Positions 5,534-57,393 of a DNA stretch of 64,000 nt are shown in pieces; within the stretch, counting starts at the first letter, position 1, and every line of letters begins with the position of its first letter. The notes under the pieces were generated by a model, which was not told the origin of the DNA, ran no database searches, and worked only from the letters and a program-made list of their open reading frames with translations. A program made the position numbers and the translations under genes. The stretch is from Bacteroidota bacterium. Its GTDB lineage: Bacteria; Bacteroidota; Rhodothermia; Rhodothermales; JANQRZ01. Location of the stretch: NCBI GenBank assembly GCA_038746285.1, contig JBCDKT010000003.1:1-64000 (forward strand). Reading direction: 5' to 3'.

Positions 5534-5575
5534 TGGGGACGGCGCGAGGGGGCGTGGGGAGGATAGAGAATAGGG

Positions 5576-5620
5576 GATGGAAAATGGCGTGCCATCCTCC
5601 ATCTTCAACCCTCCATCTTC
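5576..5620. repeat. Imperfect hairpin and direct repeat upstream of meaB
   Basis: Arms gatggaaaatggc (5576-5588) and gccatcctccatc (5591-5603) are inverted repeats with 11 of 13 positions matching. The octamer ccatcttc recurs at 5599-5606 and 5613-5620. The tract is AT-richer than its surroundings and ends about 30 bases before the meaB start. Confidence 0.5.
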
Positions 5621-5648
5621 GACACTGCCACGCTCTATCTTCTGCGCC

Positions 5649-6605
5649 ATGTCCCGCCCCGATTCCGCCACCCTTGCCGCTGCCGTCCGCGATGGGCAGC
5701 GCCGCGCCGTCGCCCGCGCCATCACACGGGTTGAGAACGGGCTGTCCGGATCTGCTGGCCTCGTGGATGCGCTCTATCCACACACCGGCGAGGCATGGCG
5801 GCTCGGGATCACGGGGCCTCCGGGTGCGGGCAAGTCGACCCTCACCGACCGGCTGATCGGGTCGATGCGCGAGGCGGGGGAGACAGTCGGCGTGGTCGCC
5901 GTCGATCCGTCGAGCCCGTTCACGGGCGGCGCGCTTCTCGGCGACCGCGTCCGCTTCGGCGAGCGGCTGGGCGACGACGGGGTGTTCTACCGCAGCCTCG
6001 CCGCACGGGGCGCGGGCGGTGGTCTCTCGGAGTCGACCGAGGCCGCGTGCGACATGCTCGACGCCGCCGGGTTCAGCCGGGTGGTCGTCGAGACGGTCGG
6101 GGTCGGACAGGGCGAGCTCGACGTGGCCGAGGCGGCCGACACGGTCGTGGTCGTCCTCGTGCCTGAGAGCGGCGACGTGGTGCAGGCGATGAAGGCCGGG
6201 CTCATGGAGATCGCCGACGTGTTCTGCGTCAACAAGGCCGACCACCCCGAGGCCGACGCGCTTGTCGGCGCGCTTCGCTCGATGCTCCGGCTGCGCGCCC
6301 ACGACGAGGCGACCTGGATGCCGCCGGTGGTGAAGACCGTCGCCACGCAGGCGGAGGGGCTGGACGCTCTCGCCGAGGCGATGCAGGAGCACCGCGACTG
6401 GCTGGGCGAGGACCGCTGGCAGGCCGCCCGCGACGACCGCCTCCGCCGCCGCGTCCGCCGCCTCGTCGAGGCCGGCTGGCAGCGACGCTTCTGGACCCCG
6501 GAGCGCCGTGCCACCCTCCGCGACGCCATCGCCACGCTCGGCAGCGAGGACCGCGCCCCGCACGCCCTCGCCGCCCACATCCTCGCCGGGTCCCCGAGAC
6601 CGTAG
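5649..6605 (+). CDS. meaB: MeaB-type G3E GTPase, methylmalonyl-CoA mutase chaperone
   Basis: GTPase of the MeaB/ArgK group that loads and protects the B12 cofactor of acyl-CoA mutases, usually methylmalonyl-CoA mutase, in the cytoplasm. The 318-residue product has a Walker A motif GPPGAGKST around Lys62, the family segment DPSSPFTGGALLGDR, the ETVGVGQ switch region and the NKAD guanine-specificity motif. Length is typical. The frame is open 24 codons upstream, but that part is repeat sequence, so the ATG at 5649 is preferred. A mutase gene normally lies nearby; none is in this window. It is divergent from aspS. Confidence 0.93.
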   Translation: MSRPDSATLAAAVRDGQRRAVARAITRVENGLSGSAGLVDALYPHTGEAWRLGITGPPGAGKSTLTDRLIGSMREAGETVGVVAVDPSSPFTGGALLGDRVRFGERLGDDGVFYRSLAARGAGGGLSESTEAACDMLDAAGFSRVVVETVGVGQGELDVAEAADTVVVVLVPESGDVVQAMKAGLMEIADVFCVNKADHPEADALVGALRSMLRLRAHDEATWMPPVVKTVATQAEGLDALAEAMQEHRDWLGEDRWQAARDDRLRRRVRRLVEAGWQRRFWTPERRATLRDAIATLGSEDRAPHALAAHILAGSPRP

Positions 6606-23934: not shown

Positions 23935-23940
23935 GAGTGT

Positions 23941-24016
23941 CGAGTTACGAGTGACGAATGCCGAGTGGATGCCATGTGCGACCATTCGACACTTGACATT
24001 CGCAACTCGTCACTCG
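23941..24016. repeat. Imperfect hairpin upstream of the SbcD-like gene
   Basis: Arms 23941-23960 and 23997-24016 (20 bases each) are inverted repeats with 17 of 20 positions matching, built from degenerate cgagt/acgaat words. The element occupies almost the whole gap between the PBP1A stop and the SbcD-like start. Confidence 0.65.
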
Positions 24017-24018
24017 CT

Positions 24019-26432: not shown

Positions 26433-27218
26433 TTACACAGGCCCTGCCCGATGTTCCGTCCGGGCCAGAACTTCGGCCTCGGCTCCGGTCCAGCGCAGCA
26501 GGGCGAGGCCGCCCGCGTCCAACCGGGCGAAGGTCCGCTCGGCGAAGAAGTAGCCGGGGTTGAGGTAGGTCCCCTCGGGCCAGGCGCTCAGCTCGGCCTG
26601 GTGGGTGTGGCCGTGGACCACGAGGTCGGCGGAGGTGGTGGCGAGGTGCCGCCGGGCGGAGGCGCGGAGGTCGCGGACGAACGGGTCCTCGGGCGCACCG
26701 TCGCCGCGCAGGGCGTACCAGCGGGCGAGGCGGAAGCCCCAGTCGCCGGGCGGGAGGCTGCGGTAGAGCCAGTACGCGAGCCGGTTGCGCAGGACCGGCT
26801 TGGCGAGGTTGTAGCCCCAGTCCGAGGCCACGAGGCCGTCGCCGTGCGTGAGGTAGGCCTCGTACGGCCCGAGGCGCACCGCGAGGTCGCCGAGCACGCG
26901 CACGCCGAGCTCGGTCTCGAAGTAGTCCAAGTGCCACGGGTCGCGGTTGCCGACGAGGTAGGTCGCGGGCAGGCCGCCGTCGGTCCACGCCGCGAGCGCG
27001 CCCTGCAGCCGGACGAAGCCTTTCGGGACGAGGGTGCCGTACTCGATGAACTGGTTGAACACGTCGCCGACGAGGAACAGCCCGCCGCCGCCGCGCTCGG
27101 TGCCCTCGCGCACCGCGTCCTCGTGCGCGCCCAGCACGGCGATGGCGTCGCGCTCGGCGGCGCGGCTCTCGGCGTCGGTGCCGCGCCCGAGGTGGAGGTC
27201 CGAGAGGAAGAGGTACAC
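26433..27218 (-). CDS. LpxH-like metallophosphoesterase
   Basis: Calcineurin-like phosphoesterase, most like UDP-2,3-diacylglucosamine pyrophosphohydrolase of lipid A synthesis, which would act at the inner face of the inner membrane. Motifs in the 261-residue product: SDLHLGRGT (about 6-14), VGDVFNQF, GNRDPWH, HGDGLVASDWG and HGHTHQAE. GNRD in place of the usual GNHD is a feature of LpxH enzymes. The start codon appears to be GTG at 27218; a 16-bp tandem array ends two bases upstream. The reading frame is open through the array, but the repeat-coded residues are not plausible as protein. LpxH versus a related phosphatase is not certain. Confidence 0.75.
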   Translation of the reverse strand: MYLFLSDLHLGRGTDAESRAAERDAIAVLGAHEDAVREGTERGGGGLFLVGDVFNQFIEYGTLVPKGFVRLQGALAAWTDGGLPATYLVGNRDPWHLDYFETELGVRVLGDLAVRLGPYEAYLTHGDGLVASDWGYNLAKPVLRNRLAYWLYRSLPPGDWGFRLARWYALRGDGAPEDPFVRDLRASARRHLATTSADLVVHGHTHQAELSAWPEGTYLNPGYFFAERTFARLDAGGLALLRWTGAEAEVLARTEHRAGPV

Positions 27219-27220
27219 GA

Positions 27221-27316
27221 GCGGGGAGGAGCGGAAGCGGGGAGGAGCGGAAGCGGGGAGGAGCGGAAGCGGGGAGGAGCGGAAGCGGGGAGGAGCGGAA
27301 GCGGGGAGGAGCGGAA
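27221..27316. repeat. Six perfect tandem copies of a 16-bp unit
   Basis: Unit gcggggaggagcggaa repeats six times without a mismatch over 96 bases, directly upstream of the GTG at 27218. A partly complementary pyrimidine tract follows (27343-27372), so a long imperfect hairpin is possible. The rotated unit differs at one base from a unit found twice inside ileS (54354-54385). Confidence 0.95.
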
Positions 27317-27445
27317 GATAGGCGAGGCGGTGGAGCGCAAAATCTTCCGCTCTTCCGTTCCTGCGCTCTTCCACACCTGAGGCGCAACCTTCCCCCAGGC
27401 GGCTCGTTCGACCATGCCCCAGCCCGAGGAACCGCGCCCGACCGC

Positions 27446-28159
27446 ATGTCCCAGAACGCCTACGCCCCGCCGACGTGGTCCGTGATGCCACCGGTGATCA
27501 AGAACCTGCTGATCATCAACGGCCTCGCGTTTTTCGCCACGCTCGCGCCGCAGCTCCAGCAGCTCCTGTTCAACTGGTTCGCCCTGTGGCCGATGGGGAC
27601 GCCGGAGGTCGCGCCGGGGCGCTTCGGGGCGATGCAGGACGTGCCCCAGTTCTACCCGTGGCAGTTGGTCACGACCGCCTTCCTGCACGGTGGCTTCGGG
27701 CACATCCTGTTCAACATGTTCGGCCTCTGGATGTTTGGGATGCGGATCGAGAACACATGGGGGAGCCAGCGCTTTGCATTCTTCTACTTCTTCTGCGTCA
27801 TCGGGGCGAGCCTGACGCAGCTCGTCGTCACCTCGGCCCCGTTCCTGTTCGGCATCGGCGACCCAGTGATCGTGCCGACGGTCGGGGCCTCGGGCGGCGT
27901 CTTCGGGGTGCTCCTGGCCTTCGGGATGATGTACCCCGAGGAGCGGATCATGCTCCTCTTCCCGCCGATCCCGATGAAGGCGAAGTGGTTCGTGATCGGG
28001 CTGATGGCGCTCCAGCTCTACGCGGGCATCACCGGGACGCAGGCCGGCGTGGCGAACTTCGCCCACCTCGGCGGCGCGATCGCCGGCTTCCTCCTCATCC
28101 AGTACTGGCGTGGCAAGCTGCCCGTGGGGCCGCGCCCGCACCACTCCGCGTACCGATGA
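27446..28159 (+). CDS. Rhomboid-family intramembrane serine protease (active type)
   Basis: Polytopic inner-membrane protease that cuts substrates within or near transmembrane helices. The 237-residue product has about six helices, the HGGFGHILFNMFGLWMFG segment (two His, an Asn and the loop before helix 2), the nucleophile Ser149 in GASGGVFG and the catalytic His207 in AHLGG. These are the hallmark residues of active rhomboids. The start ATG at 27446 lies after the repeat region. A second, apparently inactive rhomboid follows 85 bases downstream on the same strand. Confidence 0.93.
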   Translation: MSQNAYAPPTWSVMPPVIKNLLIINGLAFFATLAPQLQQLLFNWFALWPMGTPEVAPGRFGAMQDVPQFYPWQLVTTAFLHGGFGHILFNMFGLWMFGMRIENTWGSQRFAFFYFFCVIGASLTQLVVTSAPFLFGIGDPVIVPTVGASGGVFGVLLAFGMMYPEERIMLLFPPIPMKAKWFVIGLMALQLYAGITGTQAGVANFAHLGGAIAGFLLIQYWRGKLPVGPRPHHSAYR

Positions 28160-28232
28160 AGGAGGCAGTGGAGCGCGCATGCCGTAGCTTGAGTTCTTCT
28201 GTTCTCTTGCTACCTTCTCTCCAGGCCGTCCC

Positions 28233-28240
28233 TACTTTTA
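28233..28240 (+). promoter_or_regulatory. Candidate -7 box for the second rhomboid
   Basis: TACTTTTA matches 7 of 8 positions of TAnnTTTG and lies just before the start at 28245, so any transcript would have a very short leader. Weak evidence. Confidence 0.25.
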
Positions 28241-28244
28241 CTCT

Positions 28245-29207
28245 ATGAACGGAGAATCTCCCCTCGACCGGTTCCGGCGGTGGTACAACATGCTGCCGCC
28301 TGCGCTACGCCTGTTGATGACGGTCAACACGGTCCTCTTTCTGGCGTGGTTCATCCTCCAGCTCGTGCAGCCGGCGGCAGAGTTCGTGGTGGACTACCTC
28401 GCGCTCAACACGGCACTGCCAACGCCGCTCTTCCGGCCCTGGCAGCTGCTGAGCTACAGCGTGCTACACCTAGACACGAGCTTCCTCGGGCTGATCACGT
28501 TCGCGTTCGACATGCTCTGGCTCTACTGGATGGGCCGCGACTACGAGGAGACCTTCGGCAGCCACCGGCTGTTCGGGCTCTACGTGCTGGCAGCGGTGGG
28601 CGGGGCGCTCCTGGCCGTCTTCGGCGGGGCCACGCTCGGCGGCAGCGCGCTGATCTACGGCTCGATGTCGGCTGTCTTCGGCGTGCTCTGCTGCGTGGCG
28701 ACGCTCTACCCGAACCGGGGCATTGGGCTGTTCCTGCTCGGCGTCGTCCCGCTGAAGTGGCTGGCGATTGGCTTCCTCGCGCTCTTGGTGCTCACGTCGC
28801 TGCGGAGTCCGGCCTACGTCCTGCTCTACCTCGGCGGGGCCGGCATCGGCTTTCTCTTTGCGAAGGCGCAGCAGAACGGGACCGACCTCGCCGCGTGGGC
28901 CCAGGTGTTCTTCCCGTCGCGCACCGAGCGCACGCCGGCTCCGTCCGGGGAGAAGTCGGGGATGTTCGGCCGCCTGGAGCAGTGGCTAGCCCGGCGCAGC
29001 AAGGACGACCCGAAGCCGGCGCGCTCCAGCGCCTCGCGGGCCTCGGACCCGCCGCGCCGCGCGAAGCGCCGCCCGCGCCCGGCCGCACCGCCGCCCGCCG
29101 GCCCGGCCGACGTGGACCGCATCCTGGACAAGATCAGCGAGCGCGGCTACGACGCGCTCACCGAGGAGGAGAAACGCATCCTCATCGAGGCGAGCGAGGG
29201 TAACTAG
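28245..29207 (+). CDS. Rhomboid-like membrane protein lacking catalytic residues, with C-terminal DUF6576-like domain
   Basis: A 320-residue polytopic membrane protein with the rhomboid helix pattern (FGLYVLAAVGGALLAVFGG) but without the dyad: the site aligned with GASG reads YGSMSAVFG, placing Met141 where the nucleophile should be, and the usual AHLGG reads LYLGG, with Tyr195 for His. The helix-2 HxxxN is also replaced. It therefore looks like a pseudoprotease. A long basic, Pro-rich linker leads to a C-terminal segment RILDKISERGYDALTEEEKR like the small domain found at the end of many Bacteroidota rhomboids. It follows an active rhomboid, so regulation of, or substrate sharing with, that copy is possible. 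Confidence 0.85.
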   Translation: MNGESPLDRFRRWYNMLPPALRLLMTVNTVLFLAWFILQLVQPAAEFVVDYLALNTALPTPLFRPWQLLSYSVLHLDTSFLGLITFAFDMLWLYWMGRDYEETFGSHRLFGLYVLAAVGGALLAVFGGATLGGSALIYGSMSAVFGVLCCVATLYPNRGIGLFLLGVVPLKWLAIGFLALLVLTSLRSPAYVLLYLGGAGIGFLFAKAQQNGTDLAAWAQVFFPSRTERTPAPSGEKSGMFGRLEQWLARRSKDDPKPARSSASRASDPPRRAKRRPRPAAPPPAGPADVDRILDKISERGYDALTEEEKRILIEASEGN

Positions 29208-29236
29208 TGCTGCGACAAGCTCACGCTGACAGGTAG

Positions 29237-29325
29237 GTCATCCCGAACTCGGTTCAGACCGCGCAGCAGCGGCGCAGCCTATCGCCAAGCCACGCCTTAG
29301 ATCCCGGATCAGGGTCCGGGATGAC
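29237..29325. repeat. gtcatcccg...cgggatgac inverted-repeat element
   Basis: Ends gtcatcccg (29237-29245) and cgggatgac (29317-29325) are inverted repeats. A nested hairpin has a perfect 8-bp stem, atcccgga (29301-29308) with tccgggat (29315-29322). The element is in the gap before the EEP gene and resembles intergenic palindromes known in many bacteria. Confidence 0.6.
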
Positions 29326-29458
29326 AAGGTGGAGCGACCTGTCCGTCTCAACGTGCCAGAGGACTAGGACGCGTAGGCGGGGCAGAGCGGAAGCGAGGCG
29401 CGACGAGTCCCGCGATCTTCCGATCTTCCGTCGTATTCCTCGTCCACGCCCGACTGCC

Positions 29459-30553
29459 GTGCGCCGCACCCTCTGGTTCCTGTTCGCCTTGCTCGACGGC
29501 CTGGTGCTCGGGCTGGCGGCGGCGGGGTGGGCGGCGGCCTACGTGGACCCACGGGTTTTTTGGTGGCCTGCGCCGGTAGCGGTCGGTCTGCCCCTGTTCG
29601 CACTCGCCTTGGTTGGGCTGACGGTCCTGCTGGTGGCGCAGAAGCGCTGGGGCTGGGCGGTGCTCCACGGGGCCGCGCTGGCCGTGCTGGCCGTCCGGCT
29701 CGTGCCGCTGGAGCGGCTGGAGGCCCGCGCCGCGCCCGCGCCGGGCGACCTCACGGTGATGACGCTCAACGCCCCGCGCTACGGCGACAGCGCCGAGCAG
29801 CTCACGGCCGACGTGGCAGCCCTGCTGGCCGCCGAGCAGCCGGGCCTCGTGGCGCTGCAAGAGGCCGGGGCCGAGCACGCCCGCCGCCCGCCGTACCGAC
29901 CCGTCATCGCCTCCTACGTGCAGCCTGCTGTCGACTCCCTCGGCTACCGGCTCGCGATCCCCCCGGACTGGGAAACCGAACTGCCGCTGCTTGTCCGCCT
30001 CGACGCGCCGGGCGACTTCGCCGTGCTGGAGCAGAGCCAGGAGGTGCTGGCACGGGGACCTGAGGACGAGGGGGCTTCGCGCTACGTCCGCACCCACTTC
30101 CGGTGGCAAGGGCGTGAGGGCGTCCACTACAACCTCCACCTCCGCTCGTTCGGGGCGGCGAAGCCGTGGGACGTGCGCCTGGACACGGTCGAGGCGGAGA
30201 TGTGGCTGCCGTTCCTCGAGCGCTACCGGAGGGCGTATCAGCGCCGCGCCGACGAGGTAGAGCAGGTCCTGGCGAGCGTCGAGGCCGAGACGCTGCCGGT
30301 GCTGCTCTCGGGCGACCTCAACGCGACGCCCGACAACTGGACCTACCGCCGGCTCGCCGAGGGCCGCACCGATGCCTTCCGCCTGGCCGGGTCGGGGTGG
30401 GGCGGCACCTACCGCGCCGACCGCCCGCTCGTGCGGATCGACTTCGTGCTGGCCGGTCCGGCGTGGGACGTGGTGGCCGCGCACGTCCCGGACGTGGAGT
30501 TCTCGGACCACCGCCCGGTCGTGGCGCGCCTCCGGTGGCGCGAGGCGGAGTGA
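29459..30553 (+). CDS. Membrane-anchored endonuclease/exonuclease/phosphatase (EEP) family protein
   Basis: A 364-residue protein with two or three N-terminal hydrophobic segments (to about residue 87) and a C-terminal EEP hydrolase domain outside the membrane. EEP motifs are visible: MTLNAPRYG (Asn), ALQEAG (Glu metal ligand), LLSGDLNATPD (Asp/Asn) and EFSDHRPVVARL (catalytic Asp-His). Such proteins can be phosphodiesterases of nucleic acids, lipids or nucleotides, so the substrate is open. The best start is GTG at 29459; the frame is open upstream through repeat-like sequence including a variant of the 16-bp purine unit, which is not preferred. Confidence 0.8.
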   Translation: MRRTLWFLFALLDGLVLGLAAAGWAAAYVDPRVFWWPAPVAVGLPLFALALVGLTVLLVAQKRWGWAVLHGAALAVLAVRLVPLERLEARAAPAPGDLTVMTLNAPRYGDSAEQLTADVAALLAAEQPGLVALQEAGAEHARRPPYRPVIASYVQPAVDSLGYRLAIPPDWETELPLLVRLDAPGDFAVLEQSQEVLARGPEDEGASRYVRTHFRWQGREGVHYNLHLRSFGAAKPWDVRLDTVEAEMWLPFLERYRRAYQRRADEVEQVLASVEAETLPVLLSGDLNATPDNWTYRRLAEGRTDAFRLAGSGWGGTYRADRPLVRIDFVLAGPAWDVVAAHVPDVEFSDHRPVVARLRWREAE

Positions 30554-30570
30554 GCGCATGGGGGTTTCCC

Positions 30571-30661
30571 GGCGTGGAGAGTTGGGAGGGCAAGGAGGGA
30601 GCAGCGGTGCAGCACGCTCGAAAACAGCTTCTCCCTCCCGACCTTCCCTTCACTCCACGCC
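30571..30661. repeat. Imperfect inverted repeat between EEP and YkuD genes
   Basis: A 30-base arm (30571-30600, starting ggcgtggaga) is roughly complementary to 30632-30661 (ending cactccacgcc). It lies between two co-directional genes and could serve as a terminator or belong to the wider set of gap hairpins. Confidence 0.5.
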
Positions 30662-30737
30662 GAGCCCTACTGGGCCTCAGGGAGAACCGAAGGCCGGGGC
30701 GAGGGCGTACCAGGCCGCCTGCTAGCTCACGCCTCCG

Positions 30738-48160: not shown

Positions 48161-48224
48161 GTGGGAGTGTGGGAGTGTGGGAGTGTGGGAGTGTGGGAGT
48201 GTGGGAGTGTGGGAGTGTGGGAGT
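48161..48224. repeat. Eight perfect tandem copies of an 8-bp unit
   Basis: Unit gtgggagt repeats eight times over 64 bases, beginning with the base after the yggS stop codon. It can pair imperfectly (including G.U pairs) with the second array at 48278-48333, giving a possible long hairpin. Confidence 0.95.
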
Positions 48225-48277: not shown

Positions 48278-48333
48278 CGCCCATCCGCCCATCCGCCCAT
48301 CCGCCCATCCGCCCATCCGCCCATCCGCCCATC
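48278..48333. repeat. Seven perfect tandem copies of a second 8-bp unit
   Basis: Unit cgcccatc repeats seven times over 56 bases, followed by a decayed copy. The array ends about 110 bases upstream of the divIVA start. Both arrays in this gap have 8-bp units but different sequence. Confidence 0.95.
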
Positions 48334-48446
48334 CGCCCCATTCCTCCCATTCTGCGCCACAGGCGCACCCCAGGCCTCCACGCCGAAAAATCCCTCCGTA
48401 CCTTCCCTCCGTACCTCCAGCCCTTCCCCTCCCAACCCCGCCTCCG

Positions 48447-49352: not shown

Positions 49353-49429
49353 GAGCGGACGATGGGAAGAACGGAGGAGTGGAAGAGATTGCTTCCCCGT
49401 CGGCCCCGCATCTTTCACCCCATCAGCCA

Positions 49430-52263: not shown

Positions 52264-52608
52264 CTAGCGCGTCAGCGTCAGCGCCTGCGTCTCGACTACG
52301 CCGCCGGCCTCCAGCCGCACCAGGTACGTCCCGGCGGCCAGCCCGCTGCCGTCGAAGGCCGCCGCGTGCGGCCCCGCCTCGCACACGCCCTCGGCCAAGA
52401 CCGCCACGGCGCGCCCGAGCACGTCGAAGACCACCAGCCGCACCGCTGCACGCTCGGCCAGTCCGAAGGCCACCGTCGCCGCGCCTGCCGTCGGGTTCGG
52501 GTACGGCGCGGCGAGGCCTGTCACCCCGGGCGCGGCACCGACGGCAGCGAGCGGCGCGTCGCAAGCCGAACCACGTGGGCCCCGTCGAAGGCCCCGACCT
52601 TGATCGGG
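52264..52608 (-). pseudogene. Orphan T9SS sorting domain, remnant of a lost cargo gene
   Basis: The minus-strand frame is open from an in-frame stop at 52609-52611 and has no start codon ahead of the conserved part except a GTG at 52524. The coded sequence is only the end of a T9SS protein (APYPNPTAGAATVAF ... VVFDVLGRAVAVLAEG ... AGTYLVRLEAGG), highly similar to the C terminus of the product of 50299-52074. No signal peptide or passenger domain is present, so it cannot be exported as it stands. The adjoining terminator is identical to that of the intact gene. Confidence 0.75.
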
Positions 52609-52732
52609 CTACTGGGAAAGAGGGGGGCAGACGGGCAGGAGTATACCGTGCGAAGGTGTAGCGAAGACGCGCCTCCAGCCCCAATCTGCCGTGCGCTTTT
52701 GGCGCAGGTCCGGCCCGAGAGCGAATCGCTGG

Positions 52733-52740
52733 TATCTTCG
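52733..52740 (+). promoter_or_regulatory. Candidate -7 box for the 227-aa protein gene
   Basis: TATCTTCG matches 7 of 8 positions of TAnnTTTG. Similar TATCTTC words lie ahead of the peptide transporter (6862), meaB (5636) and ileS (53539). A short leader would include the repeat at 52745-52778. Confidence 0.3.
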
Positions 52741-52744
52741 CCGC

Positions 52745-52778
52745 CATTCGACCTTCGACATTCGACCTTCGACATTCG
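52745..52778. repeat. 14-bp tandem repeat upstream of the 227-aa protein gene
   Basis: Unit cattcgaccttcga occurs at 52745-52758 and 52759-52772, followed by a partial copy to 52778. The array ends 18 bases before the start at 52797. Confidence 0.8.
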
Positions 52779-52796
52779 CTCCTCGGCACTTTCAGG

Positions 52797-53572: not shown

Positions 53573-56500
53573 ATGCCGCGCTACCCCGACGCCAAAGGAT
53601 TCGACCACGCCGCCGCCGAGGAGCAGACGCTCCAGTGGTGGGACCAGCACGACGTGTTCGCCCAGAGCCTCGCCCAGCGTGAGGGCGCGCCCCACTTCGT
53701 CTTCTACGAGGGCCCGCCGACGGCGAACGGCAAGCCGGGCATCCACCATGTGATGGCCCGGACGATCAAGGACCTCTTCTGCCGCTACCGCACGATGAAG
53801 GGCTTCCGCGTCGACCGCAAAGGCGGCTGGGACACCCACGGCCTGCCGGTCGAGATCGAGGTCGAGAAGGCGCTCGGGCTGGAGGGGCGGCACGAGATCG
53901 GGCCGGACGGAAAAATCTCCATCGAGGCGTACAACGCCGCCTGCCGCGAGAGCGTCCTCCGGTACAAAGACCTCTGGGACGACCTCACGCGGCGCATGGG
54001 CTACTGGGTCGACCTCTCGGACCCGTACATCACCTTCGAGAACGACTACATCGAGTCCGTCTGGGCGCTCCTCAAAGCCATCGCCGAGCGGCAGACTGCT
54101 GACGGCGAGTCGTTCCTCTACCGGGGCCACAAGATCCAGTGGTACAGCCCCGGCTCGGGGACGGTGCTCTCGTCGCACGAGGTCTCGCTGGGCTACGAGG
54201 AGGTGCAGGACCCCTCGGTCTACGTCCGCTTCCCGGTCGAGGGCGAGCCGGACACCTCCTTCCTCGCGTGGACCACGACGCCGTGGACGCTCGTCTCGAA
54301 CACGGCGCTCGCGGTCGGGGAGGGGATCGACTACGTGAAGGTGCGGGCTGAAAGAGCGGAAGCGGGGAAGAACGGAAGCGGGGAAGAGTTTCTGTACCTC
54401 GCCGAAGCGCTGCTCGGCACCCTCGGCGGCGAGCACGAGGTCGTCGAGCGGATCACCGGCCGCGACCTCGTCGGCAAGACCTACCGGCCCGTCTTCGACA
54501 CCTTTGCCGATCACCCCGAGGCCGACCGGGCGTGGCGCGTCGTCCCCGCGCACTTCGTCTCGACCGAGGACGGTACTGGGATCGTCCATATGGCCCCCGC
54601 TTTCGGCGCGGACGACTTCGTGGTCGGGCAGCGCGAGGACCTGCCGCTCTTCAACCCGGTCACCCCGGACGGACGCTTCACCGACGCCATGCCGCTCGTC
54701 GAAGGGCAGTGGTTCAAGGACGCCGACAAGGCGCTCGCCCGCGACCTGCGCGAGCGCGGCCTGCTCTACCGCCACGAGACCTACCTCCACAACTACCCCC
54801 ACGACTGGCGCAAGGGCACGCCGCTGATGTCGTACCCGGTCGAGAGCTGGTTCATCCGCACGACCGCGATCAAGGACCGCCTCGTCGAACTCAACCAGAC
54901 CATCAACTGGCAGCCGGAGGGCATCGGGACCGGGCGCTTCGGGCAGTGGCTGGAGGGGAACGTCGACTGGGCGCTCAGCCGGATGCGCTACTGGGGTACC
55001 CCGCTCCCGGTCTGGGTGAGCGACCGCGACCCCGACGACTACGTCGTGATCGGCTCGCTCGGCGAGCTGCGCGAGAAGGCGGTGCTGCGCGACAGCGTGG
55101 TCGACCTGCACCGGCCGTTCGTGGACGAGATCACCTGGCCCGCGCCCGGCGGCGGGACCTACCGCCGCGTCCCCGACCTGATCGACGTCTGGTTCGACTC
55201 CGGGGCGATGCCGTTCGCGCAGTGGCACTACCCGTTTGAGAACCACGAGACGTTCGCGCGCAACTTCCCCGCCGACTTCATCGCCGAGGGGGTCGACCAG
55301 ACGCGCGGGTGGTTCTACACGCTTCACGCGATTGCCGCGCTCGTCGAGGACTCGGTCGCCTACAAAAACGTCGTCGTCAACGGCCTCGTCCTCGACGAGA
55401 AGGGCGAGAAGATGTCCAAGACAAAGGGCAACACGGTCGATCCCTTCGCCACGATTGACCGCCACGGGGCCGACCCGGTGCGGTGGACGCTGATGAGCGC
55501 GAGCGCGCCGTGGGAGAGCCTCCGCTACTCCGACCGCGCCGTCGAGGAGACCAAGCGCAAGTTCTTCTCGACCGTCACCAACACCTACAGCTTCTTCGCC
55601 ACCTACGCGAACCTCGACGGCTTCGCCTACGGCGGCGACCCCACGCCGCTCGCCGAGCGCACCGAGCTCGACCGCTGGATCCTCTCGCGCCTGGGCACGA
55701 CCGTCGGGGCCGTCGACGCCGCCTTCGGTGCGTACCACCCGACGCAGGCCGCGCGGGCGATGGAGACCTTCGCCGACGACCTCTCGAACTGGTACCTCCG
55801 CCGCAGCCGCCGCCGCTTCTGGAAGGGGTCATCCGACCCCCACTCGATGGATGTGGACAAACGAGCGGCCTATGAAACCACCTACGAGTGCCTGACGACG
55901 CTCGCCAAGCTGATGGCTCCGCTCGCGCCGTTCTACGCCGAGTGGCTGTGGGGTGCGCTCCGCTCGGACGACGCGCCGGCCTCCGTTCACCTCGCCGATT
56001 TTCCAGCGGTGGATGAGGCCGCCGTCGACGCCGCGCTCGAAGACCGGATGGCGCTCGCCCGGACCGTCGCCTCCATCACGCTCGCGCTCCGCAACGAGGC
56101 CGGAATCAACGTCCGGCAGCCGCTCGGCGCGCTCTCGGTCGTCACCGGGACGGCAGGCGTCGACGAAGCGACCCTGCGCTCGGTCGAAGGCATCGTCCTC
56201 GACGAGGTCAACGTCAAGCGGATCGACGCCACCCGTTCGGACAGCGGCCTCGTGGCGAAGTCGGCCAGGCCCAACTTCAAGGCGCTCGGGCGCCGGCTCG
56301 GGCCGCTGATGAAAGCCGCGAATGCAGCCATCCGCGCCCTCGGTGCCGACGCCATCAGCCGCTACGAAACCGAGGGTTCGCTCACGCTCGACCTGGAGGG
56401 TCCCAGCGGGACCCGCGAGGCCGTTGCGTTCAGGCCAGGCGACATCGACATCGCAAGCGAAGGGATCGAGGGCCACCTCGTCGGGCAAGAAGGACCGGTG

Positions 56501-56830
56501 ACCGTCGCTCTCGACACGACCATCACGGACGCGCTGCGCGACGAGGGCGTCATGCGCGAGTTCGTCAACCGGGTTCAGAACTTGCGCAAGACCGCCGCGT
56601 TCGCGGTGGCGGACCGGATTTTCGTTACCTTCCGCGCCCCGGACGCGTTGGCAGACGCCATTCGCGCCCACGCCGACACCATTCGGAACGAGACGCTGGC
56701 CGAGCGGCTGAGCGCCTCGGACGTGCCGAGCGGCGACGCGGTGGAAACCTTCGAGATCGGCGGCGAGCCGGTCGAGATCGGCGTCCGCCGGGTCGGGGCG
56801 GAAGAGACCGCCGCTGCCGAACGGCGCTGA
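53573..56830 (+). CDS. ileS: Isoleucine--tRNA ligase with a repeat-derived insertion
   Basis: Class I aminoacyl-tRNA synthetase that charges tRNA-Ile, with a proofreading (CP1) domain. The 1085-residue product has the HIGH-type motif (GPPTANGKPGIHH, His58-His59), the CP1 editing domain (LAWTTTPWTLVSNTAL, about residues 227-242), KMSKS at Lys613-Lys616 (EKMSKTKGN) and a C-terminal tRNA-binding part. Length fits the longer (type 2) IleRS. Residues about 259-272 (RAERAEAGKNGSGE) are coded by two tandem 16-bp units at 54354-54385, close to the array at 27221-27316, and look inserted into a loop of the editing domain region. Activity is probably kept because the frame is maintained. Confidence 0.95.
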   Translation: MPRYPDAKGFDHAAAEEQTLQWWDQHDVFAQSLAQREGAPHFVFYEGPPTANGKPGIHHVMARTIKDLFCRYRTMKGFRVDRKGGWDTHGLPVEIEVEKALGLEGRHEIGPDGKISIEAYNAACRESVLRYKDLWDDLTRRMGYWVDLSDPYITFENDYIESVWALLKAIAERQTADGESFLYRGHKIQWYSPGSGTVLSSHEVSLGYEEVQDPSVYVRFPVEGEPDTSFLAWTTTPWTLVSNTALAVGEGIDYVKVRAERAEAGKNGSGEEFLYLAEALLGTLGGEHEVVERITGRDLVGKTYRPVFDTFADHPEADRAWRVVPAHFVSTEDGTGIVHMAPAFGADDFVVGQREDLPLFNPVTPDGRFTDAMPLVEGQWFKDADKALARDLRERGLLYRHETYLHNYPHDWRKGTPLMSYPVESWFIRTTAIKDRLVELNQTINWQPEGIGTGRFGQWLEGNVDWALSRMRYWGTPLPVWVSDRDPDDYVVIGSLGELREKAVLRDSVVDLHRPFVDEITWPAPGGGTYRRVPDLIDVWFDSGAMPFAQWHYPFENHETFARNFPADFIAEGVDQTRGWFYTLHAIAALVEDSVAYKNVVVNGLVLDEKGEKMSKTKGNTVDPFATIDRHGADPVRWTLMSASAPWESLRYSDRAVEETKRKFFSTVTNTYSFFATYANLDGFAYGGDPTPLAERTELDRWILSRLGTTVGAVDAAFGAYHPTQAARAMETFADDLSNWYLRRSRRRFWKGSSDPHSMDVDKRAAYETTYECLTTLAKLMAPLAPFYAEWLWGALRSDDAPASVHLADFPAVDEAAVDAALEDRMALARTVASITLALRNEAGINVRQPLGALSVVTGTAGVDEATLRSVEGIVLDEVNVKRIDATRSDSGLVAKSARPNFKALGRRLGPLMKAANAAIRALGADAISRYETEGSLTLDLEGPSGTREAVAFRPGDIDIASEGIEGHLVGQEGPVTVALDTTITDALRDEGVMREFVNRVQNLRKTAAFAVADRIFVTFRAPDALADAIRAHADTIRNETLAERLSASDVPSGDAVETFEIGGEPVEIGVRRVGAEETAAAERR
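54354..54385. repeat. Two tandem 16-bp units inside ileS
   Basis: gagcggaagcggggaa (54354-54369) and gaacggaagcggggaa (54370-54385) differ at one base. The first differs at one base from the rotated unit of the array at 27221-27316. The reading frame runs through both. Confidence 0.9.
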
Positions 56831-57311: not shown

Positions 57312-57313
57312 TC

Positions 57314-57392
57314 CGATTTTAGATTTCTGATTGCCGATTTGCGATTGGGAAGCCTGTACAATCGAAAATCTCCAGTCCCGAATCCGAAATCG
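57314..57392. repeat. Long imperfect hairpin upstream of lspA
   Basis: Arms 57314-57347 and 57359-57392 (34 bases each) are inverted repeats with 25 of 34 matching and an 11-base loop. The tract is far richer in A and T than its surroundings and fills the gap between the DksA-like gene and lspA. Confidence 0.75.
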
Positions 57393-57393
57393 A

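Follow-up and report, generated by a model that had tools for sequence, protein, structure and literature searches.

Probable capture of an intergenic hairpin arm by the isoleucyl-tRNA synthetase gene of a Rhodothermales bacterium

How does DNA that resembles a repeat from the gaps between genes come to lie in frame inside ileS, an essential gene? The question is raised by a contig of a Rhodothermales genome (G000, hereafter our genome), of which we analysed a stretch of 64,000 nucleotides (the window). A sequence-only reading of this DNA had noticed a short tandem repeat within ileS and had related it to an array upstream of an unrelated gene; here we trace that repeat to its parent element, to its relatives in other genomes and to its copies in other proteins.

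Results

The stretch in ileS departs from a perfect AGAGCGGAAGCGGGGA 16-bp array at 2 of its 39 positions (54350-54388; Table 1). Two tandem units lie within it, 54353-54368 (AGAGCGGAAGCGGGGA) and 54369-54384 (AGAACGGAAGCGGGGA), which differ from each other by one base, and the first also differs by one base from the GGAGCGGAAGCGGGGA unit of the 6.1-copy array at 27220-27317; both relations had been recognized by the sequence-only reading, which had confined the repeat to the 32 bp of the two units, whereas the repeat-like stretch covers 39 bp and residues 260-272. The looser variant that it had placed near 29376-29391 does exist, but at 29384-29399. Exact copies of the first ileS unit occur at several distant loci of the genome. 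When ERAEAGKNGSGEE was recoded synonymously 400,000 times from genome codon use, no recoding matched the repeat equally well, and the resemblance therefore resides in the DNA and is not imposed by the amino acids. By codon adaptation, codons 259-272 rank among the lowest 0.3% of the 14-codon windows in ileS. The stretch is a single arm, without a loop or second arm, and showed no folding in the fold test (z -0.58).

Table 1. Coordinates of ileS and of the repeat features in the window.
Feature	Position	Strand	Description
ileS, isoleucyl-tRNA synthetase	53573..56830	+	1085 codons; PF00133, PF08264, PF19302; IleRS structures 8c8w, 1ile
Purine arm within ileS, 39 bp	54350..54388	+	GAAAGAGC GGAAGCGG GGAAGAAC GGAAGCGG GGAAGAG; 13 codons = ERAEAGKNGSGEE, residues 260-272
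Six-copy 16-bp array, purine arm of element	27220..27317	+	6.1 copies, 100%, GGAGCGGAAGCGGGGA, divergent spacer
Pyrimidine arm of the element of 27220..27317	27343..27372	+	TCTTCCGCTCTTCCGTTCCTGCGCTCTTCC; 27296-27375 folds to -41.6 kcal/mol, z -3.75
Second, degenerate hairpin element copy	29384..29432	+	AGAGCGGAAGCGAGGC ... TCTTCCGATCTTCCG
Degenerate purine arm straight after TAA stop	49353..49385	+	GAGCGGACGATGGGAAGAACGGAGGAGTGGAAG; no clear second arm, no significant palindrome

Within the window, the 16-mer had 12 matches at up to 3 mismatches against 1.16 expected, a count reached by none of 100 shuffles. The sequence-only reading had called for a search of the whole genome, in which AGAGCGGAAGCGGGGA (up to 2 mismatches) matched 111 times and its reversed pattern 12 times, an excess of about 9-fold and far over chance; the corresponding counts were 10 versus 13 in the sister species G001 and 45 versus 15 in the more distant G002. 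A 21-bp word pattern returned 246 matches versus 4 for its reversed control in our genome, overlapping positions within arrays included, 59 versus 2 in G002, 9 versus 1 in G001 and 16, from two arrays, in G046, and it was near background in almost all others of the 196 genomes of the class. Analysis of k-mer enrichment in 120 kb of G001 found no counterpart family, and low-copy relics exist in that species. As judged from sequence, the family is lineage-specific. Several contigs begin or end in repeat arrays (C79 and C92 of our genome, which begin in them; C5 and C10 of G002; C1 and C8 of G046); long arrays probably break assemblies, and the copy numbers would thus be underestimates. Further in-gene matches to the 16-mer at up to 2 mismatches (L084, L097, L102, L105 and L111) are without element context and were attributed to chance, the reversed control giving 8.

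The 16-mer is no free tandem repeat: it consists of the inner words in the purine arm of an intergenic hairpin that is dispersed through the genome. A complete element measures about 85-110 bp. Its purine arm is built of 8-bp words (GGAAGAGC, GGAAGCGG, GGAAGAAC) and is joined to a complementary pyrimidine arm by a loop of about 20-40 nt that varies strongly between copies; some copies carry inner purine words amplified into 16-bp tandem units. A permissive search recovered 42 palindromes in the retrieved loci, and the fold z was -4.39 for L093, -5.44 for L087 and, more weakly, -2.04 for L118, beside the copy of the window (27296-27375; Table 1). The 51 classified element spacers include 33 tandem, 11 divergent and 7 convergent ones. 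Many copies directly adjoin a stop codon, and the purine arm tends to stand in a fixed register after it (TAG GAGC GGAAGAGC...), with an offset of 4 modulo 8 in 27 of the 38 genes that have an arm within 40 nt. TAG is the stop at 22 of 38 genes adjoining elements versus 85 of 202 (P 0.08), an enrichment that is only suggestive. A role solely as terminator was rejected on the lack of a T run and the many divergent copies (11/51); no intrinsic terminator-like site was found in 26900-30000, and no Rfam match exceeded the gathering score in the window. A search for RAYT (Y1_Tnp, PF01797) gave 0 matches in our genome, which is 96.6% complete, with 5 of 14 control genomes positive, and a RAYT/REPtron origin was rejected for want of a Y1_Tnp match.

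The element is absent from G001 at two convergent junctions, those of purD and L093. On the 3' side of purD, G001 reads ...GGACTCAAGCGAGTCGCCGGTTGATCACTGACG, whereas in our genome the element occupies about 100 bp and has rewritten the PurD tail to LLRAEAGTSGSGED, the protein ending ...RAEAGTSGSGED; at L093, 14 bp remain unaligned in G001 and 85 bp in our genome. Both empty sites have diverged flanks, and they may reflect loss from G001 instead of gain in our genome, but the purD tails of six further genomes are also without the element. One gene present in both species (L204 in our genome, L271 in G001) ends in an element-coded tail with diverged words; because this tail is shared, some copies of the element are probably older than the split of the two species.

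The purine strand of the arm is without T and its complement without A, and the arm is therefore stop-free in all six frames; all three frames of the purine strand are hydrophilic (GRAEAGK, EERKRGR and KSGSGE types). Words of the family also lie in frame within the genes of other proteins. One copy encodes AEERKNGRAEK in the linker between the domains of a FAD/OYE fusion enzyme, a linker that G002 and G059 have shorter by about 7 residues or more; another encodes GRAEERKSGG in the hydrophilic loop at the centre of ChrA, a chromate transporter; and further copies encode the C-terminal tails of PurD and of two or three more proteins. Compared with synonymous recoding, these copies outside ileS gave P values from <5e-6 to 6e-5; in-gene copies were surveyed around retrieved matches and their number is a lower bound. 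The linker of the G001 fusion enzyme (L242) has a different purine-only stretch (GAGAACGGGGGAGAGGGAGAACGAGAGAAAGGGGGAGAG, with one C) that misfits the family word (P 0.74). Arms apparently within L083, L107, L117, L215 and L220 were left out of the count as antisense, near gene starts or in doubtful gene calls.

In IleRS, the loop that links KVR to the following strand has 14 residues here and usually 9 in the homologues aligned from the order. Our protein reads KVR-AERAEAGKNGSGEE-FLYLA at this place, and the loop is KVRKENEEGETEYIYLA (9 residues) in G001, which supplies the one other species of the within-genus comparison and whose IleRS is 84% identical overall, and KVRQTRDDGTDEYLILA in G002. 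The loop DNA of G001, AAAGAAAACGAGGAGGGCGAGACCGAG, is purine-rich and encodes charged residues. The loop varies in length, and G046 (L078) and G008 (L035) have longer, unrelated versions of their own. The claim of the sequence-only reading that most IleRS proteins are without such a stretch agrees with the 9-residue loop of most sampled relatives, and the alignment that it had recommended found the same residues in other codons in neither G001 nor G002. Its argument that a 32-bp insertion must have been accompanied by flanking changes restoring the frame is not needed: the loop has a net gain of 15 bp (5 residues) over relatives, and therefore no separate frame-restoring change need be assumed. 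In an AlphaFold (AF2) model of mean pLDDT 83, residues 253-260 and 271-277 are strands and 261-270 a loop, with pLDDT below 50 at 264-268; the model supports a placement of residues 261-270 at the predicted tip of a beta-hairpin, as a low-confidence loop of the editing domain. The earlier proposal that a gap repeat had entered an essential gene and been tolerated in a surface loop is supported, the loop by this model, with the amendment that the repeat is a hairpin arm and not a free-standing tandem repeat. Elsewhere in the editing domain, between the matches to our residues 311 and 319, the G001 IleRS (L061) has an extra segment of about 48 residues that is unrelated to the repeat, and G011 (L062) has another at that place.

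Hairpins with other words are also present. Purine/pyrimidine hairpins occupy the spacer at 27219-27445 and its orthologues in G001 and G002, with a different word in each of the three species, and long palindromes of other 7-8 bp words, among them GAGTGACGA, GGGAGGGCAAGGAG and CGATTT, occur in the spacers 23935-24018, 30554-30680, 57312-57393 and 5540-5680 (palindrome z 4.3-7.1). Because the orthologous spacers and the other palindromes use different words, these sequences suggest that the hairpin architecture may outlive its words. Another spacer contains two perfect 8-bp tandem arrays, GTGGGAGT x8 at 48161-48224 and CGCCCATC x7.6 at 48278-48338, which resemble an arm-loop-arm with yet another word. 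The spacer 52525-52796 contains a CATTCGA/CCTTCGA heptamer tandem repeat at 52745-52778 and no significant palindrome.

Discussion

We consider it probable, at about 0.8, that the stretch derives from a lineage-specific intergenic hairpin element, one arm of which ileS has captured. Either a single arm, or what was left of an element minus its loop and second arm, would have replaced or extended the loop of the editing-domain beta-hairpin, lengthening it by 15 bp net. Because ileS holds a single arm, we favour two routes: the arm may have been copied from a spacer copy by template switching or ectopic conversion, or an element may have been inserted and then have lost its loop and second arm by internal deletion. 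Relatives already have a variable, hydrophilic loop here, and the arm may therefore have taken the place of an older loop and not simply have been added to it. Its tolerance could be explained by an arm that is stop-free in every frame and by hydrophilic peptides that would be acceptable to a surface loop, and IleRS activity is presumably unaffected. Two observations weigh against capture: the ileS copy has no second arm or loop and a fold z of -0.58, which leaves insertion of a whole element unsupported, and the G001 loop (AAAGAAAACGAGGAGGGCGAGACCGAG) is purine-rich already.

The main rival is slippage from a purine-rich coding seed, since the loop of G001 is purine-rich too: the loop would have grown locally when a chance 16-bp seed underwent replication slippage, and convergence or shared mutational bias would account for its likeness to the family. 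The charged, purine-rich loop of the sister species would suit such an origin, as would the return to an ordinary 9-residue loop when one unit is removed and one G added, and the G001 flavoenzyme linker has purine words of a different kind. Slippage is nevertheless the less likely explanation, and in our judgement an improbable one, because of the near-perfect match to a genome-specific unit: 39 bp carry 2 mismatches to the dominant unit of the genome, with 0/400,000 recodings as close, and the 21-bp word pattern stands at 246 against 4 in the reversed control. The words moreover recur in several other proteins, and the purine linker of G001 misfits them (P 0.74).

Selection on the protein would imply an adaptive or functional loop, in tRNA binding or editing, whose amino acids happened to need these codons. 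The position of the loop within the CP1 editing domain and the independently long loops of two relatives (L078, L035) would be consistent with it, but recoding never recovers the repeat, codon use is anomalous, the loop is unconserved and of low confidence in the model, and its DNA words are shared with unrelated proteins; we regard this explanation as very unlikely. Slighter still is the chance that the repeat was mis-joined into ileS during assembly: arrays of the family do break contigs (C79 and C92 begin in them), but the stretch is only 39 bp long, the frame is intact through 1085 codons and the sequence flanking the stretch on either side has normal coding scores.

Capture of an arm would show clearly, in ileS, how non-coding spacer DNA can come to belong to an essential enzyme that is otherwise conserved. 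It would also be a new instance of repeat sequence leaking into proteins, which probably happens because the arms never encode a stop. Repeated entry would have a simple reason, as purine arms cannot hold stops and would code for a flexible hydrophilic peptide in any frame. With a lineage-specific family and empty sites in a sister species, both the spread of the element and its contribution to proteins are testable. More tentatively, and with less than even odds, the elements could represent a poorly described class of spacer hairpins in this bacterial family, whose 7-8 bp words turn over between species and between spacers of a single genome while the arm-loop-arm of a given spacer persists, and whose stop-free hydrophilic arms would be a steady source of linkers and tails for proteins, essential ones included. 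Turnover of words under a kept architecture would, if true, be the more novel finding.

We found no account of such repeats in Rhodothermales in the open-licence PMC literature. Rickettsia palindromic elements (RPEs) are palindromic repeats that lie in frame within unrelated genes (PMC10969869, PMC3733652), which they enter whole, at about 150 bp (PMC10969869). In-frame presence in unrelated genes is found here too (ileS, the FAD/OYE fusion and ChrA, and the tails of PurD and others), but as one arm of 10-14 codons, made of tandem 8-bp words that are stop-free in six frames, instead of the whole palindrome of an RPE. REP elements are intergenic hairpins near 3' ends whose termini often give TAG stops, and some copies lie inside genes, tRNA synthetases included (PMC3733652). 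Like REPs of the GTAG/CGTC superfamilies, the element described here is intergenic, lies near 3' ends and can supply stop codons; unlike them, it has no consistent GTAG or CGTC tag: TAG is common at its end, preceded by varying bases, and TGA and TAA share the register. At about 85-110 bp it also exceeds the 20-40 bp of a REP palindrome, its arms of 8-bp words being longer and its loops variable; no RAYT gene was found in our genome, and copies occupy divergent as well as convergent spacers. The family thus resembles RPEs and REPs, yet is without the tag and RAYT of REPs and, in ileS, without the whole palindrome of RPEs. As a short non-coding inverted-repeat element with terminal inverted repeats and two empty sites in a relative it also recalls MITEs, a comparison that rests on the inverted repeats and empty sites, without an established target-site duplication or autonomous partner. 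Tandem repeats of short, heptamer-type words are reported to be concentrated in the spacers of Beggiatoaceae, Xanthomonas and Nostoc (PMC4679880, PMC4692102); they are described as direct repeats, whereas the words of the present family form the two complementary arms of a hairpin.
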